IMG/VR virus record: IMGVR_UViG_3300043399_000684
Span: 1-30,781 of that record
Reading direction: 5' to 3' (one strand)
Length of the DNA: 30,781 bases
Origin: a virus
Positions 1,354 to 30,586 of the stretch are shown here, piece by piece (the stretch's first letter is position 1; each line of letters starts with the position of its first letter). The notes under the pieces were generated by a model, which did not search any database, was not told the DNA's origin, and was given only the letters and a program-made list of their open reading frames with translations. The translations under genes and the position numbers were made by a program.

Positions 1354-1470
1354 ATGCGCACGCCGGCCTATCGCAGGGCCATGCATGAGGAGAAGCGCTG
1401 TCGCGAGTACTTTGTGCGGGAAGTGTTCTTTGTGGGCACGAAAAAGGTCATGAGGGCCGCCGTGACATGA
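1354..1470 (+). CDS. hypothetical 38-aa protein between cro-like gene and primase
   Basis: A short frame with ATG at 1354 and a stop that overlaps the primase start as ATGA (1467-1470). The product is basic (MRTPAYRRAMHEEKR, then an aromatic stretch YFVREVFF). Translational coupling supports expression and may serve to deliver ribosomes to the primase. There is no strong binding site before its ATG, and no recognisable family. Confidence 0.45.
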   Translation: MRTPAYRRAMHEEKRCREYFVREVFFVGTKKVMRAAVT

Positions 1471-3809
1471 CGGGTACGAGTAGCGTCACTGCCTTGCATC
1501 AGCGCGATGTGCTGAGCTGCGCGCTCGGCTATATCCGTTTGGGATGGTGGGTGTTGCCGTTGCTGCCGGGGTCCAAGTCGCCACTGAGCAAATTGGTACC
1601 CAACGGGGTGCACGGCGCGACCAATGACCCGACGGTGGCCAGGCGATGGTGGACTCAGTGTCCTGACGCGGGTATCGGCCTGGCGCTGCTCAAGAGCCTT
1701 TTGGTGGTGGTGGACGAAGACCCGCGCAACGGCGGCGAGCACACCATCGAGGCCCTGGAGGCCATCCACGGGCCGATGGTGTCGGACGTGATGGCGCTCA
1801 CGGGCGGCGGCGGGGTGCATTGGGTGTTCACGGCCTCGCTGGTGGGTAGCCTGCCGGGCAAGTTGGGACCCGGCGTGGACCTGAAAGCGGACGGGTACAT
1901 CGTGGTCGAGCCGTCGCTGCACCCGAGCGGCAAGAGATATGTTTGGGAGGCGAGCAGCGATCCGTTAGAGGGGGTGCTGCCTTCTGCGCTGCCGGGATGG
2001 ATTCGGAATTTATCGGTGCCGGTGGCGGCTCCTGGCATGGGGAGCGGCCCGCAGTTCATTACAGGGTCGCAGCAGGAGGAACTCGAGAGCGCACTGGGAG
2101 TTTTGCCCGCGGACGATTACCACCAATGGCTGCAGGTGGGCATGGCGCTGCACGGGACGCAGGACCGGGTATGGGGGTTTCAGGTTTGGGACTTGTGGTC
2201 GCAGAAGTCGTCGAAGTACGACTCGTCGACCATGGCGCACAAGTGGGCGAGCTTTCGCGCCGAGCGCCTGCAAACGGGAGTGACTTATCGGTCGATCTTC
2301 AAGTGGGCGCAGGAGTTGGGGTGGCAGTCGCCGATGATGGTGGGGACAAAGCAAGAGGGATCGCCGCCGGAGTTGTCGGACGCGGAGCTGGCGGCTATGG
2401 TGCGAGAACCCCCCCCGCAGCCGCCGTCACGTAAGGCGGCTGCGGCGATAGGGCCGGTGTCATTCCCGATCGATTCCTTGAACGCGTTGCACACGTGGTT
2501 CGATCGGCACGGCGATAGTACCCATCCACTGGCTTCGCAGGTTGGCGTTCTGGCGGTCGTTTGCGCCGCGGCGGCACGCCGCTATGTCTCGCCTTCCGGC
2601 GACCCGGCATCGTGCTACCTGGGCGTCCTGGCGCCTTCATTGCCGATGACGCGCTATGTGACCGAAGGAATTGAAAAGGTCCTGATCGACGCGGGCCAGT
2701 CCCACGCGCTCAGGACCGGACGGATGACAAGCCCGCAGCATGTGTACGCGACCCTATTTCGCGAACCGGCGTCCATCTACATGCCGGACGACTATGGCGG
2801 CCAGGTTAGGTTTTCCAGAAGACAGCCTTCCGGGCTGATGGAACAAACCCTGACGCTGATCGCTGGGCGTATTAATTCGGGGACCATGCTTGTACTTGAC
2901 AACTGGCAGGAGCTTGGCTTTTCGCGCGCGCCCGAGGGCGGCAGCGGTAACCCGGTTATCCATGCACCAAGCCTGAGCATGTTCGCGGCGATCACCGCGG
3001 CGCATATGCCGCAGATTTTCAAGACGGGCGAGTTTTCCCGCGGCTTGGTCGACAGCCTGTTGCTGGCTCCTGCCATGGACGGTTCGCAATGGCGGACTTC
3101 GGCGGCCAGGGCCAAAGAACCGGTGCCCGATGCGGTGGTCGGCCGCATCCGTGCATTGCGAGGGACGGCTGAACAGGACACTGCCACGGGCGGCCTGGGT
3201 GATCTGGCCGTCGCGATACCCGCTCAGCGTACCGTGAAGTTCGCGGGACAGGTCGCGGAGATCGAACGCGGATGGATTGAACTGTACGCCGGCCAGCGCG
3301 CAGAGGTCGTGCAACTTGCCGCTGGCGCACGGCGCACGTTGCGGCGCCTGTGCACGGCATTGGCGGCATGGGTAAACCCGAATGATCCGGTGGCAACGAA
3401 GGAAATCGTGAGCTGGGCGGCTACGTTCGTGAAGATGTGTCTGGACGCGACCATTGAGCAGGCGCATCTGCGCATCAGCGATGACGACGAGAAGCCTGAT
3501 GCGTACCAGCGAGTCCTAGAGTTCATCAGCCAGTACGGCCATGCGGGCGTGAGTATTCGTGACCTGACGCGCGGATGCCGTGCGTACCGATCCCTCAAGC
3601 CTGATGCGCGTACCGACCTGCGTATCGCCATGTTGGAGGACGAATCGCTCGTTGATTTTCCCTCCACGAGCGGACGCGGCAGGGTCTTGGTCGCATCGCA
3701 GTTCGTGGAAAACCCTAATACCGGAGATAAAAACGACGCAAATGGCCTCGAAGTGTCGACATGTGTCGACAGTGTCGACAACTCAGTGTCGACATATAGA
3801 ACCGCATGA
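1467..3809 (+). CDS. bifunctional prim-pol / PriCT primase with inactive helicase-like C-terminus
   Basis: A 780-residue replication protein. Residues about 15-185 match the archaeo-eukaryotic primase (prim-pol) fold: acidic motif VVVDEDP (D83/D85), GGGGVHW (H118), and GVDLKADGYIVVEPS with D138. Residues about 200-290 match a PriCT-2 segment (DYHQWLQVGMALHG, then the YRSIFKWAQELGW end). The rest resembles the RepA/DUF3987 helicase-like part of such proteins, but where a P-loop is expected (about 386-398) it reads GVLAPSLPMTRYV, without GKS/T, so ATP hydrolysis is unlikely. The separate helicase at 4010 may supply unwinding. The last 19 codons run into the palindrome cluster and encode a low-complexity VSTCVDSVDNSVST tail. 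It likely primes phage DNA synthesis at the neighbouring candidate origin. Confidence 0.85.
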   Translation: MTGTSSVTALHQRDVLSCALGYIRLGWWVLPLLPGSKSPLSKLVPNGVHGATNDPTVARRWWTQCPDAGIGLALLKSLLVVVDEDPRNGGEHTIEALEAIHGPMVSDVMALTGGGGVHWVFTASLVGSLPGKLGPGVDLKADGYIVVEPSLHPSGKRYVWEASSDPLEGVLPSALPGWIRNLSVPVAAPGMGSGPQFITGSQQEELESALGVLPADDYHQWLQVGMALHGTQDRVWGFQVWDLWSQKSSKYDSSTMAHKWASFRAERLQTGVTYRSIFKWAQELGWQSPMMVGTKQEGSPPELSDAELAAMVREPPPQPPSRKAAAAIGPVSFPIDSLNALHTWFDRHGDSTHPLASQVGVLAVVCAAAARRYVSPSGDPASCYLGVLAPSLPMTRYVTEGIEKVLIDAGQSHALRTGRMTSPQHVYATLFREPASIYMPDDYGGQVRFSRRQPSGLMEQTLTLIAGRINSGTMLVLDNWQELGFSRAPEGGSGNPVIHAPSLSMFAAITAAHMPQIFKTGEFSRGLVDSLLLAPAMDGSQWRTSAARAKEPVPDAVVGRIRALRGTAEQDTATGGLGDLAVAIPAQRTVKFAGQVAEIERGWIELYAGQRAEVVQLAAGARRTLRRLCTALAAWVNPNDPVATKEIVSWAATFVKMCLDATIEQAHLRISDDDEKPDAYQRVLEFISQYGHAGVSIRDLTRGCRAYRSLKPDARTDLRIAMLEDESLVDFPSTSGRGRVLVASQFVENPNTGDKNDANGLEVSTCVDSVDNSVSTYRTA

Positions 3810-3983
3810 AATAAGGCCAAAACCCAAGTGTCGACACTGTCGACACGACATATAGGGGGGGTATAGGGGGAAATAAAAAACCTCTATACGCACGTGTCGA
3901 CATGTCGACATTGGCCGGAACCCGCATGAATGCTTGATCTATGTGTCGACACCATTTGTCGACACCACTGTCGACAGTCGACA
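3754..3983. repeat. cluster of eleven TGTCGACA palindromes, candidate replication origin
   Basis: Eleven exact TGTCGACA copies start at 3754, 3764, 3773, 3787, 3829, 3838, 3895, 3903, 3944, 3957 and 3969, plus a seven-base match GTCGACA at 3977. Many are GTGTCGACA. They fall in groups spaced about 8-14 bases apart, separated by gaps of 41-57 bases. The middle gap (3846-3890) carries a G7 run, a G5 run, AT-rich AAATAAAAAA and an imperfect GTATAG/CTATAC inverted repeat that could be an unwinding element. The cluster begins in the 3' end of the primase gene and ends 27 bases before the helicase start. Iteron-like arrays beside primase/helicase genes are typical of phage origins; a regulatory array is the alternative. 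Confidence 0.75.
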
Positions 3984-4009
3984 CCACAGTAACTATACGT
4001 AACAAGAAC

Positions 4010-5380
4010 ATGCAAAATCAAGGGATAACCCTTACAGATTCACAGTCTGAGGTGCTCGAAGGGCTAAAAACCTTCATTTTTGCCCCGAGAGATGATTCGG
4101 GGACCGCCACGCTGGGGGGATACGCCGGCGTGGGAAAGACGACCGTGGTGGGGCGACTGATCAAATCCGCGGCGGATCAGGGCAAGCGGGTTCTGGCAAT
4201 GGCTCCGACGCATCAGGCGGTGTCAGTCCTTGCCTCCAAGATGCCAAGCTGTACGCAGGCGTCGACCGTGCACTCGGCGCTCGGGCTCAGAATGGTGGAG
4301 CGGAATGACGGCACGTTAGGCGTGGGCCAGCGCGTGGGGCAGGTTCGACTTCGGGAGTTCGATCTCGCCGTGGTGGATGAGGCTTCCATGCTGGACCGCG
4401 CACTGTTCGGCATGCTGATGCAGAACCGCGGGTGCTGCCGCGTTCTCTTTGTGGGGGACCCGGCGCAGTTGGCGCCCGTGGGGGATGGCGGGAAGTTGCT
4501 TTCCCCGGTGTTTGACGAAGCAATCGTGCCTACGCAGTTTCGATTGACTGAGGTCGTTCGGCAGGCTGCCGACAATCCGGTGATCCGATGGTCTCAGGTG
4601 CTGCGTCGCAATGTGAATAGCAACAGCACGCCAGATATTGCTGAGCTAGGTGTGTTGCTGCGCGAGGGGGACGATAAGTTCTTGAGCATTCAGCCAGGGG
4701 GGGCGTACCGGCTGACCGAGCTTTGCATTGACGCCATCAGGAACGGGGTGGCGGCACGCATCCTGTCGTTCAAAAATTCCTCGGTGATTCGGCATAACCA
4801 TGAGGTCCACAGCGCTCTGCACCCTGACGTGGATGGGTTTGCAGAGGGTGAGCCGGCCATTGTCCAGTCCCAGTTCTACGCCCACGACAAAGAGACCGAC
4901 CAGATGGTGCGGTTTCACACGTCGCAGCAAGTCGAAGTGCTGTCATGCGAGCCTGGTCGATCGGCGCAGTTTCCTGATGTTCCGTGCTGGCGGTTGAAGG
5001 TGGCGAGTTCGTACGGGTCAGAGGTATCGGTTCTGGTGCCGAAGTTCGAAGTGAACTTCACCCAGGAGATCGACGCGCTGTTTCGTGAGGCGAACTTCCA
5101 GAATGAGCAGGCCAGGCATGAACCGATGGCGAGCGCCTCAATGCGGCGCGCGCGAGCTGCGGCTGCGTTGGCAGAGGCAAAGTCCAGACGCGCTGCGTTC
5201 GCGCTGATCCGACATGCATATGCGATGACGTTCCATAAATCCCAGGGCAGCACTTTCGAAGCGTCGTTGATCGATTGGGAAGGCATGGCCGACCCGCGCC
5301 AAAGCGGCAGTGATAAGGCGCGTATGGCCTACGTAGGGGTGACGCGAACGTCGAAGTATCTTGTGGTGGTGACGGAATGA
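4010..5380 (+). CDS. SF1B 5'-3' DNA helicase (Dda/RecD-like)
   Basis: A 456-residue ATP-dependent DNA helicase. Walker A GYAGVGKTT (about 37-45), APTHQA (motif Ia, 65-70), Walker B VVDEAS (121-126), VGDPAQLAPVGDG (motif III), FRLTEVVRQ (motif IV region), and near the end MTFHKSQGSTF and AYVGVTRTSKYLVVV (motifs V and VI, UvrD_C_2-type). I start it at the ATG at 4010 (MQNQG); the longer frame from 3941 would translate the palindrome array as low-complexity residues. The binding site is weak (AACAAG). Its stop overlaps the next gene (ATGA). Together with the primase it forms the fork machinery of the phage. Confidence 0.9.
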   Translation: MQNQGITLTDSQSEVLEGLKTFIFAPRDDSGTATLGGYAGVGKTTVVGRLIKSAADQGKRVLAMAPTHQAVSVLASKMPSCTQASTVHSALGLRMVERNDGTLGVGQRVGQVRLREFDLAVVDEASMLDRALFGMLMQNRGCCRVLFVGDPAQLAPVGDGGKLLSPVFDEAIVPTQFRLTEVVRQAADNPVIRWSQVLRRNVNSNSTPDIAELGVLLREGDDKFLSIQPGGAYRLTELCIDAIRNGVAARILSFKNSSVIRHNHEVHSALHPDVDGFAEGEPAIVQSQFYAHDKETDQMVRFHTSQQVEVLSCEPGRSAQFPDVPCWRLKVASSYGSEVSVLVPKFEVNFTQEIDALFREANFQNEQARHEPMASASMRRARAAAALAEAKSRRAAFALIRHAYAMTFHKSQGSTFEASLIDWEGMADPRQSGSDKARMAYVGVTRTSKYLVVVTE

Positions 5381-5679: not shown

Positions 5680-6131
5680 GATGTTCGTTCGTCGTCCTGG
5701 GGCTCCCCGCGCCTCAGGGTTCCAAGCGCTTTGTTGGTGTGAGCGCCTCCGGCAAGGGGCTGATGGTGGAGGCGTCGAAGAAGGTCGCGCCGTGGCGGGA
5801 GGTGGTGCACACGACGGCGCAGTTGATTCGTGCGCGCGACGGCCTCAGGGCGCCCATGGATGGGCCGTTGCGGGCGCGAATCGTGTTCACCCTGCCCAAA
5901 CCCGTGGCGGCGTCTAAAAAGCGGCCCGCGTGGCCGCTGAGATCGCCGGACCTGGACAAGCTGTGCCGTTCGACGCTCGATGCGCTGACGACTTCGGGGT
6001 TGATTGCGGATGACGCGCGCATCGTGGAGTTCGCGCGGCTGGCCAAGGTGTATCCCGGAGAGGACCCAGAGGCGCTTTCCTCGCCGGGCGCACGGATTGA
6101 GGTGGAGTTGATTGATTTGTCTTGGAGGTAA
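5676..6131 (+). CDS. rusA: RusA-family Holliday junction resolvase
   Basis: 151 residues. The RusA hallmark is complete: PDLDKLCRSTLDALT (D92, D94, K95) followed by GLIADDARIVE (D112/D113), giving the acidic metal-binding cluster and basic residue used to cut four-way junctions. The N-terminus FVVLGLPAPQGSKRF is also typical. It likely resolves recombination and replication junctions before packaging. It starts in an ATGA overlap with the DUF3310 gene, and its TGGAGGTAA end supplies the ribosome-binding site of the next small gene. Confidence 0.9.
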   Translation: MRCSFVVLGLPAPQGSKRFVGVSASGKGLMVEASKKVAPWREVVHTTAQLIRARDGLRAPMDGPLRARIVFTLPKPVAASKKRPAWPLRSPDLDKLCRSTLDALTTSGLIADDARIVEFARLAKVYPGEDPEALSSPGARIEVELIDLSWR

Positions 6132-6835: not shown

Positions 6836-7105
6836 ATGCCAGATAAAAAAACTACTAGGAATCTTCCCCCCGGCGCAGGCCCAGGCCGACCTAAGGGCAT
6901 GCCGAACAAAACTACGGCGCTGCTCAAGGACATGATCATGACCGCCCTACACGGCGCGGGTGGTGCTGCTTATCTTGAAGAACGCGCTAATGATCCAAAG
7001 ACGGCCCCTGCCTTTTTGGCTTTGATCGGCAAGGTATTGCCCATGCAAGTGACTGGACCGGGTGACGGCCCGATACAGACCCACATTAGGGTCACCTTCG
7101 AGTGA
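6836..7105 (+). CDS. terminase small subunit-like protein
   Basis: 89 residues. An N-terminal basic segment GRPKGMPNKTTALLKDMI is typical of DNA-recognising small terminase or DUF5681-like proteins; the rest is helical (YLEERANDPKTAPAFLALIGKVLPMQV). It lies directly before the large subunit and overlaps it as GTGA. It should select the packaging site on concatemeric DNA and hand it to the large subunit. There is no good ribosome-binding site before the ATG, so the structured leader may influence its translation. Confidence 0.7.
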   Translation: MPDKKTTRNLPPGAGPGRPKGMPNKTTALLKDMIMTALHGAGGAAYLEERANDPKTAPAFLALIGKVLPMQVTGPGDGPIQTHIRVTFE

Positions 7106-8364
7106 GCCTGGCGCGGTTTCCAAAGAAACTGCGCTTCCTGTTCTCGCCAGCTAGGTACAAGGTCGCCCGAGGCGGTCGCGGCTCCGGTAAGTCTTGGGGA
7201 TTTGCCCGGGCTCTATTAATCCAGGCGTCCCAGCGCACATTGCGTGTGCTTTGCACTCGGGAAGTCCAAAAGACGATCCAGCAGTCAGTCCATCAACTGC
7301 TCAAGGACCAAATCGCTGAACTTGGGCTGGGAAGCCAGTTCGAGGTACTCCAGACAGAGATTCGAGGGAAGAACGGCTCAGCGTTCTATTTCTCCGGCCT
7401 TTCGGACCAGACCGCTGAATCTCTCAAGTCTTTTGAGGGCATCGATATTGTTTGGGCAGAGGAGGCCCACGCAATTACTAAGCGGAGTTGGGAAATACTG
7501 ATCCCGACGATCAGAAAGCCCGGGTCTGAGATATGGGTAACTTACAACCCGCAGCTCGACTCAGACGATACACACCAGCGCTTTGTCGTTCAGCCTCCGC
7601 CCGACTGCGTATCGGTCGAGATGAACTATGTAGATAACCCATGGTTCCCAGAGGTTTTGGAGAGAGAGCGGCTGCACGCCAAGGCCACGATGCCCGAGGC
7701 GGACTATGACCATATTTGGGAGGGCAAGTGCCGCCCAGCAGTCGAGGGCGCGATCTTCTTTGCTCAGATGGCCCAGGCAGAGGGCCGAATTGGCAATTGC
7801 CCCCATGACCCGCTGCTCAAGACGCATGGCGTTTGGGACTTGGGCTTCAACGACTCAATGGCAATCATCCTCGTTCAGCGCCTGGGTGGCGAGGTCAGGA
7901 TCGTTGACTACATAGAGGGCGAGCAGCGCACCTTGGCGGATTACTCCGCTGAGTTGCGCGGGAGGCAGATCGACGGGCAGCCCGTGAATTGGGGCTATCA
8001 ATACCTACCCCATGACGGCTTTGCAAAGCGGCATCAAAGCGGCAAGTCAGACGCCGAAGTAATGCGCGGCCTGCAATGGCAGGTGATGCAAACGCCGCTG
8101 TCTGACGTTGAGTCGAGCATCAACCGGTGCCGAGAAATCTTCGGCCGGGTCTATTTCCACAAGCAGCGGGCGGCTCGCCTGATCGAGTGCCTCAAGCGCT
8201 ACCGGCGTGCGGTGAACAAAACAACCAACGAGCCCGGGGCCCCACTTCATGACGCATTCAGCCACGGCGCAGACGCTTTTAGGTATCTGGCGCTGGTGGC
8301 AGACCAGCTTTCAAACGACGAATGGGGCGGCGCTCTCAACTACCCGCGATTGGTGACTGCGTGA
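7102..8364 (+). CDS. terL: terminase large subunit (PBSX-type)
   Basis: 420 residues, starting with GTG in a GTGA overlap with the small subunit. N-terminal ATPase: Walker A GGRGSGKS (24-31), Walker B IVWAEEAH (116-123), coupling motif WVTYNPQ (145-151). C-terminal RNase H-like nuclease with D246 and D251 in VWDLGFNDSMA and D384/D391 in HDAFSHGADAFRY. The length is normal for the family. It is the motor that cuts concatemers and pumps DNA through the portal encoded next. Confidence 0.93.
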   Translation: MSLARFPKKLRFLFSPARYKVARGGRGSGKSWGFARALLIQASQRTLRVLCTREVQKTIQQSVHQLLKDQIAELGLGSQFEVLQTEIRGKNGSAFYFSGLSDQTAESLKSFEGIDIVWAEEAHAITKRSWEILIPTIRKPGSEIWVTYNPQLDSDDTHQRFVVQPPPDCVSVEMNYVDNPWFPEVLERERLHAKATMPEADYDHIWEGKCRPAVEGAIFFAQMAQAEGRIGNCPHDPLLKTHGVWDLGFNDSMAIILVQRLGGEVRIVDYIEGEQRTLADYSAELRGRQIDGQPVNWGYQYLPHDGFAKRHQSGKSDAEVMRGLQWQVMQTPLSDVESSINRCREIFGRVYFHKQRAARLIECLKRYRRAVNKTTNEPGAPLHDAFSHGADAFRYLALVADQLSNDEWGGALNYPRLVTA

Positions 8365-29723: not shown

Positions 29724-30134
29724 TCACAGCCGCGCTGAAATCTGCTCGCTCGACTCCCTCGTCATCGTCGGCTCCTTTGGTGGTTGAGGTATTCGAGGCC
29801 GGGCGCCGAACAGCAAGCGGGCGCGAAGCACCTCGAAGCTGTACCCCCGCCCGGCACGGTTGATGGTTTTGGCAACCCCATTCAATGCCTCGGTGTAAGC
29901 ATTGCTGATCGGGTGGTCGAAGTAAGCGGTGATCTCAGGCCGCCAGTTGCGCATGGCCGTGAGCAGCACCTTGAAGTCGGCCTTGAGCGGCGCCGGCACG
30001 CTGCCCTTGAAGGCGTCGTAGGCGACCAGGGCCTGCGGCTTCTTCATCTCGTAGATACCGTAGAACGCTTCCTTGAGTCGGTAGGCGTCAGCCAGCTCGG
30101 GCTCGTTGTCGAGCCACATCCTATAGATCAACAT
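29724..30134 (-). pseudogene. 3' fragment of an ISL3-family transposase
   Basis: A 136-codon frame (140 from an ATG at 30146) matching only the C-terminal part of ISL3 transposases: RLKEAFYGIYEM, then the NWRPEITAYFDHPIS block, NAYTEALNGVAKTINR with the last catalytic Glu of the DDE triad, and GRGYSFEVLRARLLFGARPR. ISL3 transposases are normally about 400 or more residues; the first two Asp and the zinc-finger N-terminus are absent. I see no terminal inverted repeats. It is in frame, with GGAAG before the ATG at 30134, and overlaps the end of the upstream early gene, so it may still be translated as the last gene of the leftward operon. Confidence 0.75.
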
Positions 30135-30586
30135 GGAGACTTCCACAAGTTATTCCGGAGAGCCATGAAGTCGCCCTTGTCCTCGACGATGGCCGGTTCG
30201 GCCTCGACGCATGGGCATTCGTAGCCGCTCAAGTGGTCAGCCACCGGCCGCCAGAAGTTGCGCGCTCGACCGCTTGGCACGTGGTTGTCTTCTTTTGCGT
30301 CGAGCAATCCGAAAGCCGCCAACACCCAAAGCGCATCTGCTGTCGAGCAGCGCCGGCCATTGGCCGAAATGCTGATGTGATATTCGGGGCCGAGTTGCAG
30401 CTTTCCTGGCTCGTTGGCCACTTCGACAGCACTTAAAACAAAGAGTCCGTGCTCTGCGTGAGCCCATGCCTCAATCGGGTAGCCGAGCGAAGCGAGATCA
30501 GGCGGTGCGGTCCAGGCACGATCGCAGCGCCACCCGACGCCAGTCGGCCGCTTTGGTTTGATAATCGATTCCACTTCGACTTTCAT
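30128..30586 (-). CDS. conserved early phage protein of unknown function (152 aa)
   Basis: 152 residues with a strong AGGAGGT binding site and an ATGA overlap with the alanine-rich gene. Motifs LQLGPEYHISISANGRRCST, ADALWVLAAFGLLDAKEDNH, GRARNFWRPVADHLSGYECP, and CVEAEPAIVEDKGDF form a conserved family of small phage proteins I have seen in early regions, with no known function. The last about 12 residues (ALRNNLWKSPC) overlap the transposase fragment and may have been altered when it was acquired. Confidence 0.75.
   Translation of the reverse strand: MKVEVESIIKPKRPTGVGWRCDRAWTAPPDLASLGYPIEAWAHAEHGLFVLSAVEVANEPGKLQLGPEYHISISANGRRCSTADALWVLAAFGLLDAKEDNHVPSGRARNFWRPVADHLSGYECPCVEAEPAIVEDKGDFMALRNNLWKSPC

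Follow-up and report, generated by a model that had tools for sequence, protein, structure and literature searches.

Iteron plasmid and lambda-O type origins typically consist of direct repeats, each about 17-22 bp long, next to an AT-rich element. In the SaPI/SCCmec group of self-loading helicase origins (SaPI Rep, Cch, Cch2), short iterons lie directly downstream of the initiator gene. The SaPI/SCC initiators bind these downstream iterons through their C-terminal domain; SaPI Rep reads the iterons behind its own gene in this way, apparently as two hexamers (PMC7581432). PrimQH-type archaeo-eukaryotic primases combine PrimPol and PriCT domains with a P-loop ATPase region and a C-terminal winged helix (WH) suggested for origin recognition, and the passages of the source considered here describe no origin array (PMC5862659). 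For the PrimPol of phage NrS-1, replication is thought to start from a specific priming site, a short single-stranded sequence of 8 nt of which each genome has two copies (PMC7102993, PMC8718748). In the open-access literature searched, no description of an origin for DUF3987-type initiators was found.

In the viral DNA analysed here (the window, 30,781 nt in full), an array of short palindromes at 3754-3983 lies directly behind a primase gene and, judged from sequence comparison, is very probably the replication origin of the phage. Its best reading, by analogy, is a SaPI-like iteron origin that the C-terminal domain of the primase would bind. The features of the region are as follows:

1467-3809, + strand: PrimPol (AEP), PriCT_2, DUF3987-like region and C-terminal winged-helix-like domain, 780 aa; proposed origin-binding initiator/primase
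3501-3704, + strand: primase segment at about residues 679-746, presumed to be the winged-helix end and proposed to bind the iterons
3705-3809, + strand: C-terminal extension of the primase that the Vibrio-phage homologues lack; the array encodes part of it
3754-3794, no strand: left outer block, four TGTCGACA (3754, 3764, 3773, 3787)
3829-3845, no strand: left inner block, two TGTCGACA spaced 9 bp
3846-3894, no strand: core separating the halves, containing TATAGGGGG repeats and an A-rich run; candidate site of unwinding
3895-3910, no strand: right inner block, two TGTCGACA spaced 8 bp
3944-3983, no strand: right outer block, three TGTCGACA (3944, 3957, 3969) and AGTCGACA (3976-3983)
4010-5380, + strand: Dda-like SF1B helicase (phrog_325, E 5e-83), probable start 4010 in an ORF open from 3941; candidate helicase partner
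6836-7105: small terminase subunit, assigned by position
7102-8364: large terminase subunit

All eleven exact copies of TGTCGACA in the window fall within 3754-3976, whereas 0.37 +/- 0.63 are expected from dinucleotide shuffles (maximum 3 in 100 shuffles), which bears out the preliminary description of a palindrome cluster far beyond chance. A twelfth site, AGTCGACA, is the sole one-mismatch copy in 3500-4300 and shares one base with the last exact site; GTCGAC sites in the array number 12 in total. Spacing, measured from start to start, is 7-14 within blocks and 42, 57 and 41 between blocks. The 49-bp core contains TATAGGGGGGG-TATAGGGGG-AAATAAAAAA-CCTCTATA and has an AT content of 55% against 39% for the window, consistent with the earlier picture of sites grouped around an AT-rich core. 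The array begins 56 bp before the primase stop and finishes 174 bp after it, and the region has no match in Rfam. GC skew, which had been proposed as a check, shows no inflection at the array and lends the origin no support.

The preliminary description missed that the twelve sites form a 4-2-core-2-4 dyad, with an axis at 3868.5 and mirror pairs that match within 3 bp (site centres at -111/+111, -101/+104, -92/+92, -78/+79, -36/+38 and -27/+30). Dyad symmetry of this kind arises by chance with p = 0.0024 when the gaps are permuted and p = 8e-6 under uniform placement. Permuting the gaps of the array itself gives p = 0.0019 for a 4-2-2-4 order whose widest gap is central. The orientation of single sites is invisible because TGTCGACA is a palindrome. 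Spacers facing each other across the axis show partial complementarity as well (TATAGA/TCTATG, GGCC/GGCC, TATAGGGG/CCTCTATA), and 1 of 300 within-spacer letter shuffles matched the native mirror score. As a single strand, the array is predicted to form one long hairpin with z = -9.3, a value inflated because the shuffles break the palindromes, the within-spacer shuffle being the fair control.

The primase carries Prim-Pol (E 8e-27) and PriCT_2 (2e-17) domains, and its residues 501-728 align with the C-terminal half of DUF3987 plus a winged-helix-like segment (E 2.7e-6 in one profile comparison). Full-length homologues with 25-26% identity occur in Vibrio phages H188 and 1.030.O, and a third (L173) matches the Pfam family DUF3987 at 3.5e-12. 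The winged-helix-like end is conserved in L153 and L155 and alignable with the end of DUF3987 proteins; the assignment of this DNA-binding domain comes from alignment, the predicted structure of the C-terminal half being too poor to use (pLDDT 36), and no PDB relative was found. Homologues end straight after the winged-helix-like segment, whereas the window primase runs about 30 residues further, its ORF traversing the first four sites so that the last residues of the tail (EVSTCVDSVDNSVSTYRTA) are array-encoded. This agrees with the earlier suggestion that the array enters the coding end of the primase and forces the tail upon it. At the Walker A position, the alignment sets GVAKSTAGKE in the homologues against GVLAPSLPMT in the window primase, and the ATPase of the latter is therefore probably inactive.

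The locus resembles SaPI/SCCmec origins in the placement of the array directly behind the initiator gene and in two opposed iteron sets around a core. It differs from them in that the initiator is PrimPol-PriCT_2-DUF3987-like with a lost Walker A motif, the iteron is a perfect palindrome and a Dda-like helicase gene follows. Because Walker A is lost, a pure SaPI-style self-loading helicase is unlikely and full membership is not claimed; by analogy, the array would work like a SaPI-type origin short of it. With the PrimQH-type primases, as far as the passages considered describe them, the window protein shares AEP and PriCT_2 domains; a DUF3987-like ATPase region is suggested by profile comparison and through a homologue, and a WH-like end by alignment. 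Its ATPase is apparently inactive. The double-stranded 12-site dyad represents a different principle from the priming site of NrS-1. Like iteron plasmid and lambda-O origins, the window has a short-repeat array adjoining an AT-rich stretch, but the repeats are 8-bp palindromes forming a dyad around the core, and direct repeats of about 17-22 bp are absent. What appears to be new here, from the sequence, is the combination of a perfectly palindromic iteron with a DUF3987-like initiator that lacks Walker A, a Dda-like helicase being encoded next door.

The same layout recurs behind replication genes elsewhere when any repeated 7-mer, not the literal TGTCGACA, is sought behind the DUF3987-WH region. 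About nine of 14 cyanobacterial DUF3987 plasmids, a proportion that applies only to this group chosen by similarity to the cyanobacterial locus L065, each have their own word, present in 7 to 16 copies (for example GCTGACA, AGTGGAC, ACTGTAG, AAGTAGA or ACTACTG) in opposite orientation in the two halves; about five of the 14 lack a clear dyad. Iteron counts are 7-16 per 600 bp, against 6 or fewer in nearly all control windows of the same loci, the exceptions being two loci with local tandem repeats (L157 and L162). Two distant IMG/VR PrimPol phages show the layout directly behind the gene, with CGGCAAC in L178 and GTGGAC in L180. Among six annotated phages fetched irrespective of repeats, it is clear in three (THSA-485A, FP_Epona, LfeSau), partial in phiRg507T2_3 and weak in AC844P1 and Jekyll. 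The geometries, given as outer-inner gap / inner spacing / core gap / inner spacing / inner-outer gap, are:

Window: 42/9/57/8/41
L178: 44/9/75/9/46
L180: 42/8/72/9/52
THSA-485A: 54/9/107/7/51
FP_Epona: 47/9/107/9/47
Cyanobacterial plasmid L158: 66/9/138/9/69
Cyanobacterial plasmid L165: 55/9/108/9/42

Across these elements, inner sites lie 7-10 bp apart with few exceptions, the outer-inner gap is 41-69 bp and the core gap 57-138 bp, the window standing at the compact end of the range. The L180 initiator has DUF927 and a Cch HTH domain (HTH_56) and, by its domains, belongs with SCC Cch and SaPIbov1 Rep, so that an initiator of the SaPI/SCCmec kind shows the block geometry of the window. The recurrence of one layout, with other words, behind related replication genes in unrelated phages and plasmids is what makes the array a very probable origin, and the candidate iteron origin put forward earlier is thereby strengthened. 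Against it, the nearest full-length homologues, those of the Vibrio phages, share the C-terminal domain but lack an array, both directly behind the gene and in the rest of the 7-12 kb examined. The search for close relatives yielded a single further copy of the same phage (L005/L007/L171). The cores of L178 (7120-7185) and L180 (around 7480) contain a GCGCGCACGCGCG stretch, and that of the window contains TATACGCACG only.

In the proposed mechanism, the C-terminal winged helix of the primase would bind TGTCGACA, each palindrome offering two half-site contacts. Each 6-site half would carry one assembly, perhaps a hexamer, with the two placed head to head; the core between them would be strained and then opened, and the exposed strands would be primed by PrimPol. 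Since Walker A is missing in the alignment, unwinding would probably fall to the neighbouring Dda-like helicase or to one from the host. Co-evolution of the repeats with the domain that reads them would leave each replicon with an iteron of its own on one shared geometry. A broader reading, which we favour by a narrow margin over its negation, is that a single mirror-image origin design (an outer group of 3-4 iterons, then 40-70 bp to an inner group of 2-3 spaced 8-9 bp apart, then the core and the same in mirror image) is common to mobile-element initiators with different engines, namely DUF3987, DUF927/Cch and VapE/D5-like, across a range that takes in cyanobacterial plasmids as well as Firmicutes and other phages. 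The window phage would then be the extreme case, its initiator keeping origin reading and priming, with a replicon-specific iteron word, and giving unwinding to the Dda-like helicase. In uncultured phages, satellites and plasmids, such a geometry would allow the origins behind PrimPol, DUF3987, DUF927 and VapE genes to be called directly from the sequence, and it poses a testable recognition problem of one scaffold with many initiators and different iteron words.

That the sites are instead an operator array, through which a regulator such as the YdaS/Cro-like protein (1035-1346) would control the helicase operon, is unlikely. Palindromic 8-mers fit dimeric HTH repressors, the array lies upstream of the helicase gene (followed 3' by DUF3310 and then RusA genes) and a YdaS/Cro-like HTH gene is present, but the sites near that gene carry another word. 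Three CACTNNAGTG palindromes surround it (764-773, 788-797 and 1104-1113; 0.29 expected), with CACTCGAGTG found twice and CACTACAGTG once, and these are probably the operators of the phage's own repressor, which speaks against the array as repressor sites. TGTCGACA itself is found nowhere in the window outside the array, including the repressor's own promoter, no + strand promoter-like match was found in 3500-4300, and the fixed block geometry of the 12-site dyad recurs with replication genes.

The tie between this geometry and replication initiators also weighs against a packaging (pac/cos) or partition site, a very unlikely reading: although a marine phage group has TGTCGACA clusters near a small-terminase-like gene (its identity judged by eye) and multi-site arrays also serve ParB-type partition, the terminase genes of the window are at least 2.9 kb away and no partition gene was seen in it. 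The long imperfect inverted repeat that makes up the region might suggest a selfish repeat or a functionless inverted duplication, but the sites are exact while the spacers have diverged, and unrelated replicons show this layout built from unrelated words, which leaves this explanation highly improbable. Attachment sites or arm-type recombinase sites are scarcely credible here, since neither a recognisable integrase nor a tRNA gene was found in the window and a 12-site dyad behind a primase is unlike arm sites; what recommends them is that some bacterial TGTCGACA triplets (L048, L071, L074, L109) lie within about 250 bp of tRNA/tmRNA genes.

The word TGTCGACA is not confined to such candidate origins. 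Triplet arrays of it occur in 20 viral contigs of IMG/VR, against 4 for a control palindrome. In the cyanobacterium L065, a TGTCGACA array and the end of a DUF3987 gene overlap, and in L109 one lies about 620 bp behind such a gene, in each case the sole DUF3987 gene of the genome. Clusters are also found beside non-replication genes and tRNA/tmRNA genes or in coding repeats, and the word was not found in most of the cyanobacterial DUF3987 plasmids, which use others. A universal meaning of TGTCGACA was therefore rejected, and geometry rather than word is the shared trait. A Burkholderiales source of the array was likewise rejected, as only the starting genome among 399 contains a TGTCGACA triple.

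Several further occurrences were recorded. L023 has three TGTCGACA (5834-5899) immediately upstream of a replication gene of inovirus type (phrog_702, E 1e-90). The L020-type replication protein has no match among annotated phages, so its replication role rests on appearance only. The triplets near tmRNA/tRNA genes in L048 (5159-5188), L071 (5146-5184) and L074 (7728-7757), with a like case in L109, are possible integration-related sites. TGTCGACA minisatellites with an exact 21-bp period are shared by MAGs of Treponema and Tannerella/Tannerellaceae (L042-L046, L051, L052, L073, L080, L102 and others), many of which belong to sister accession series. In AT-rich viral contigs (L010, L011, L014, L019, L022, L029, L032), inverted GGTGTCGACA / TGTCGACACC blocks with an 80-90 bp core lie between an exonuclease gene and a gene resembling a small terminase, and are perhaps the origin or packaging site of these contigs.

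DNA-level comparison with the phage collection gave no match for the first 24 kb of the window. The large terminase subunit has about 51% identity to those of Pseudomonas phages H66 and LKA5. Near the contig end, a C-terminal fragment matching transposase family phrog_5749 (29724-30146, - strand) is perhaps an insertion remnant or host sequence, and the very end of the contig (30649-30781) consists of GGCGGCGTAGGCGGC-type low-complexity repeats.
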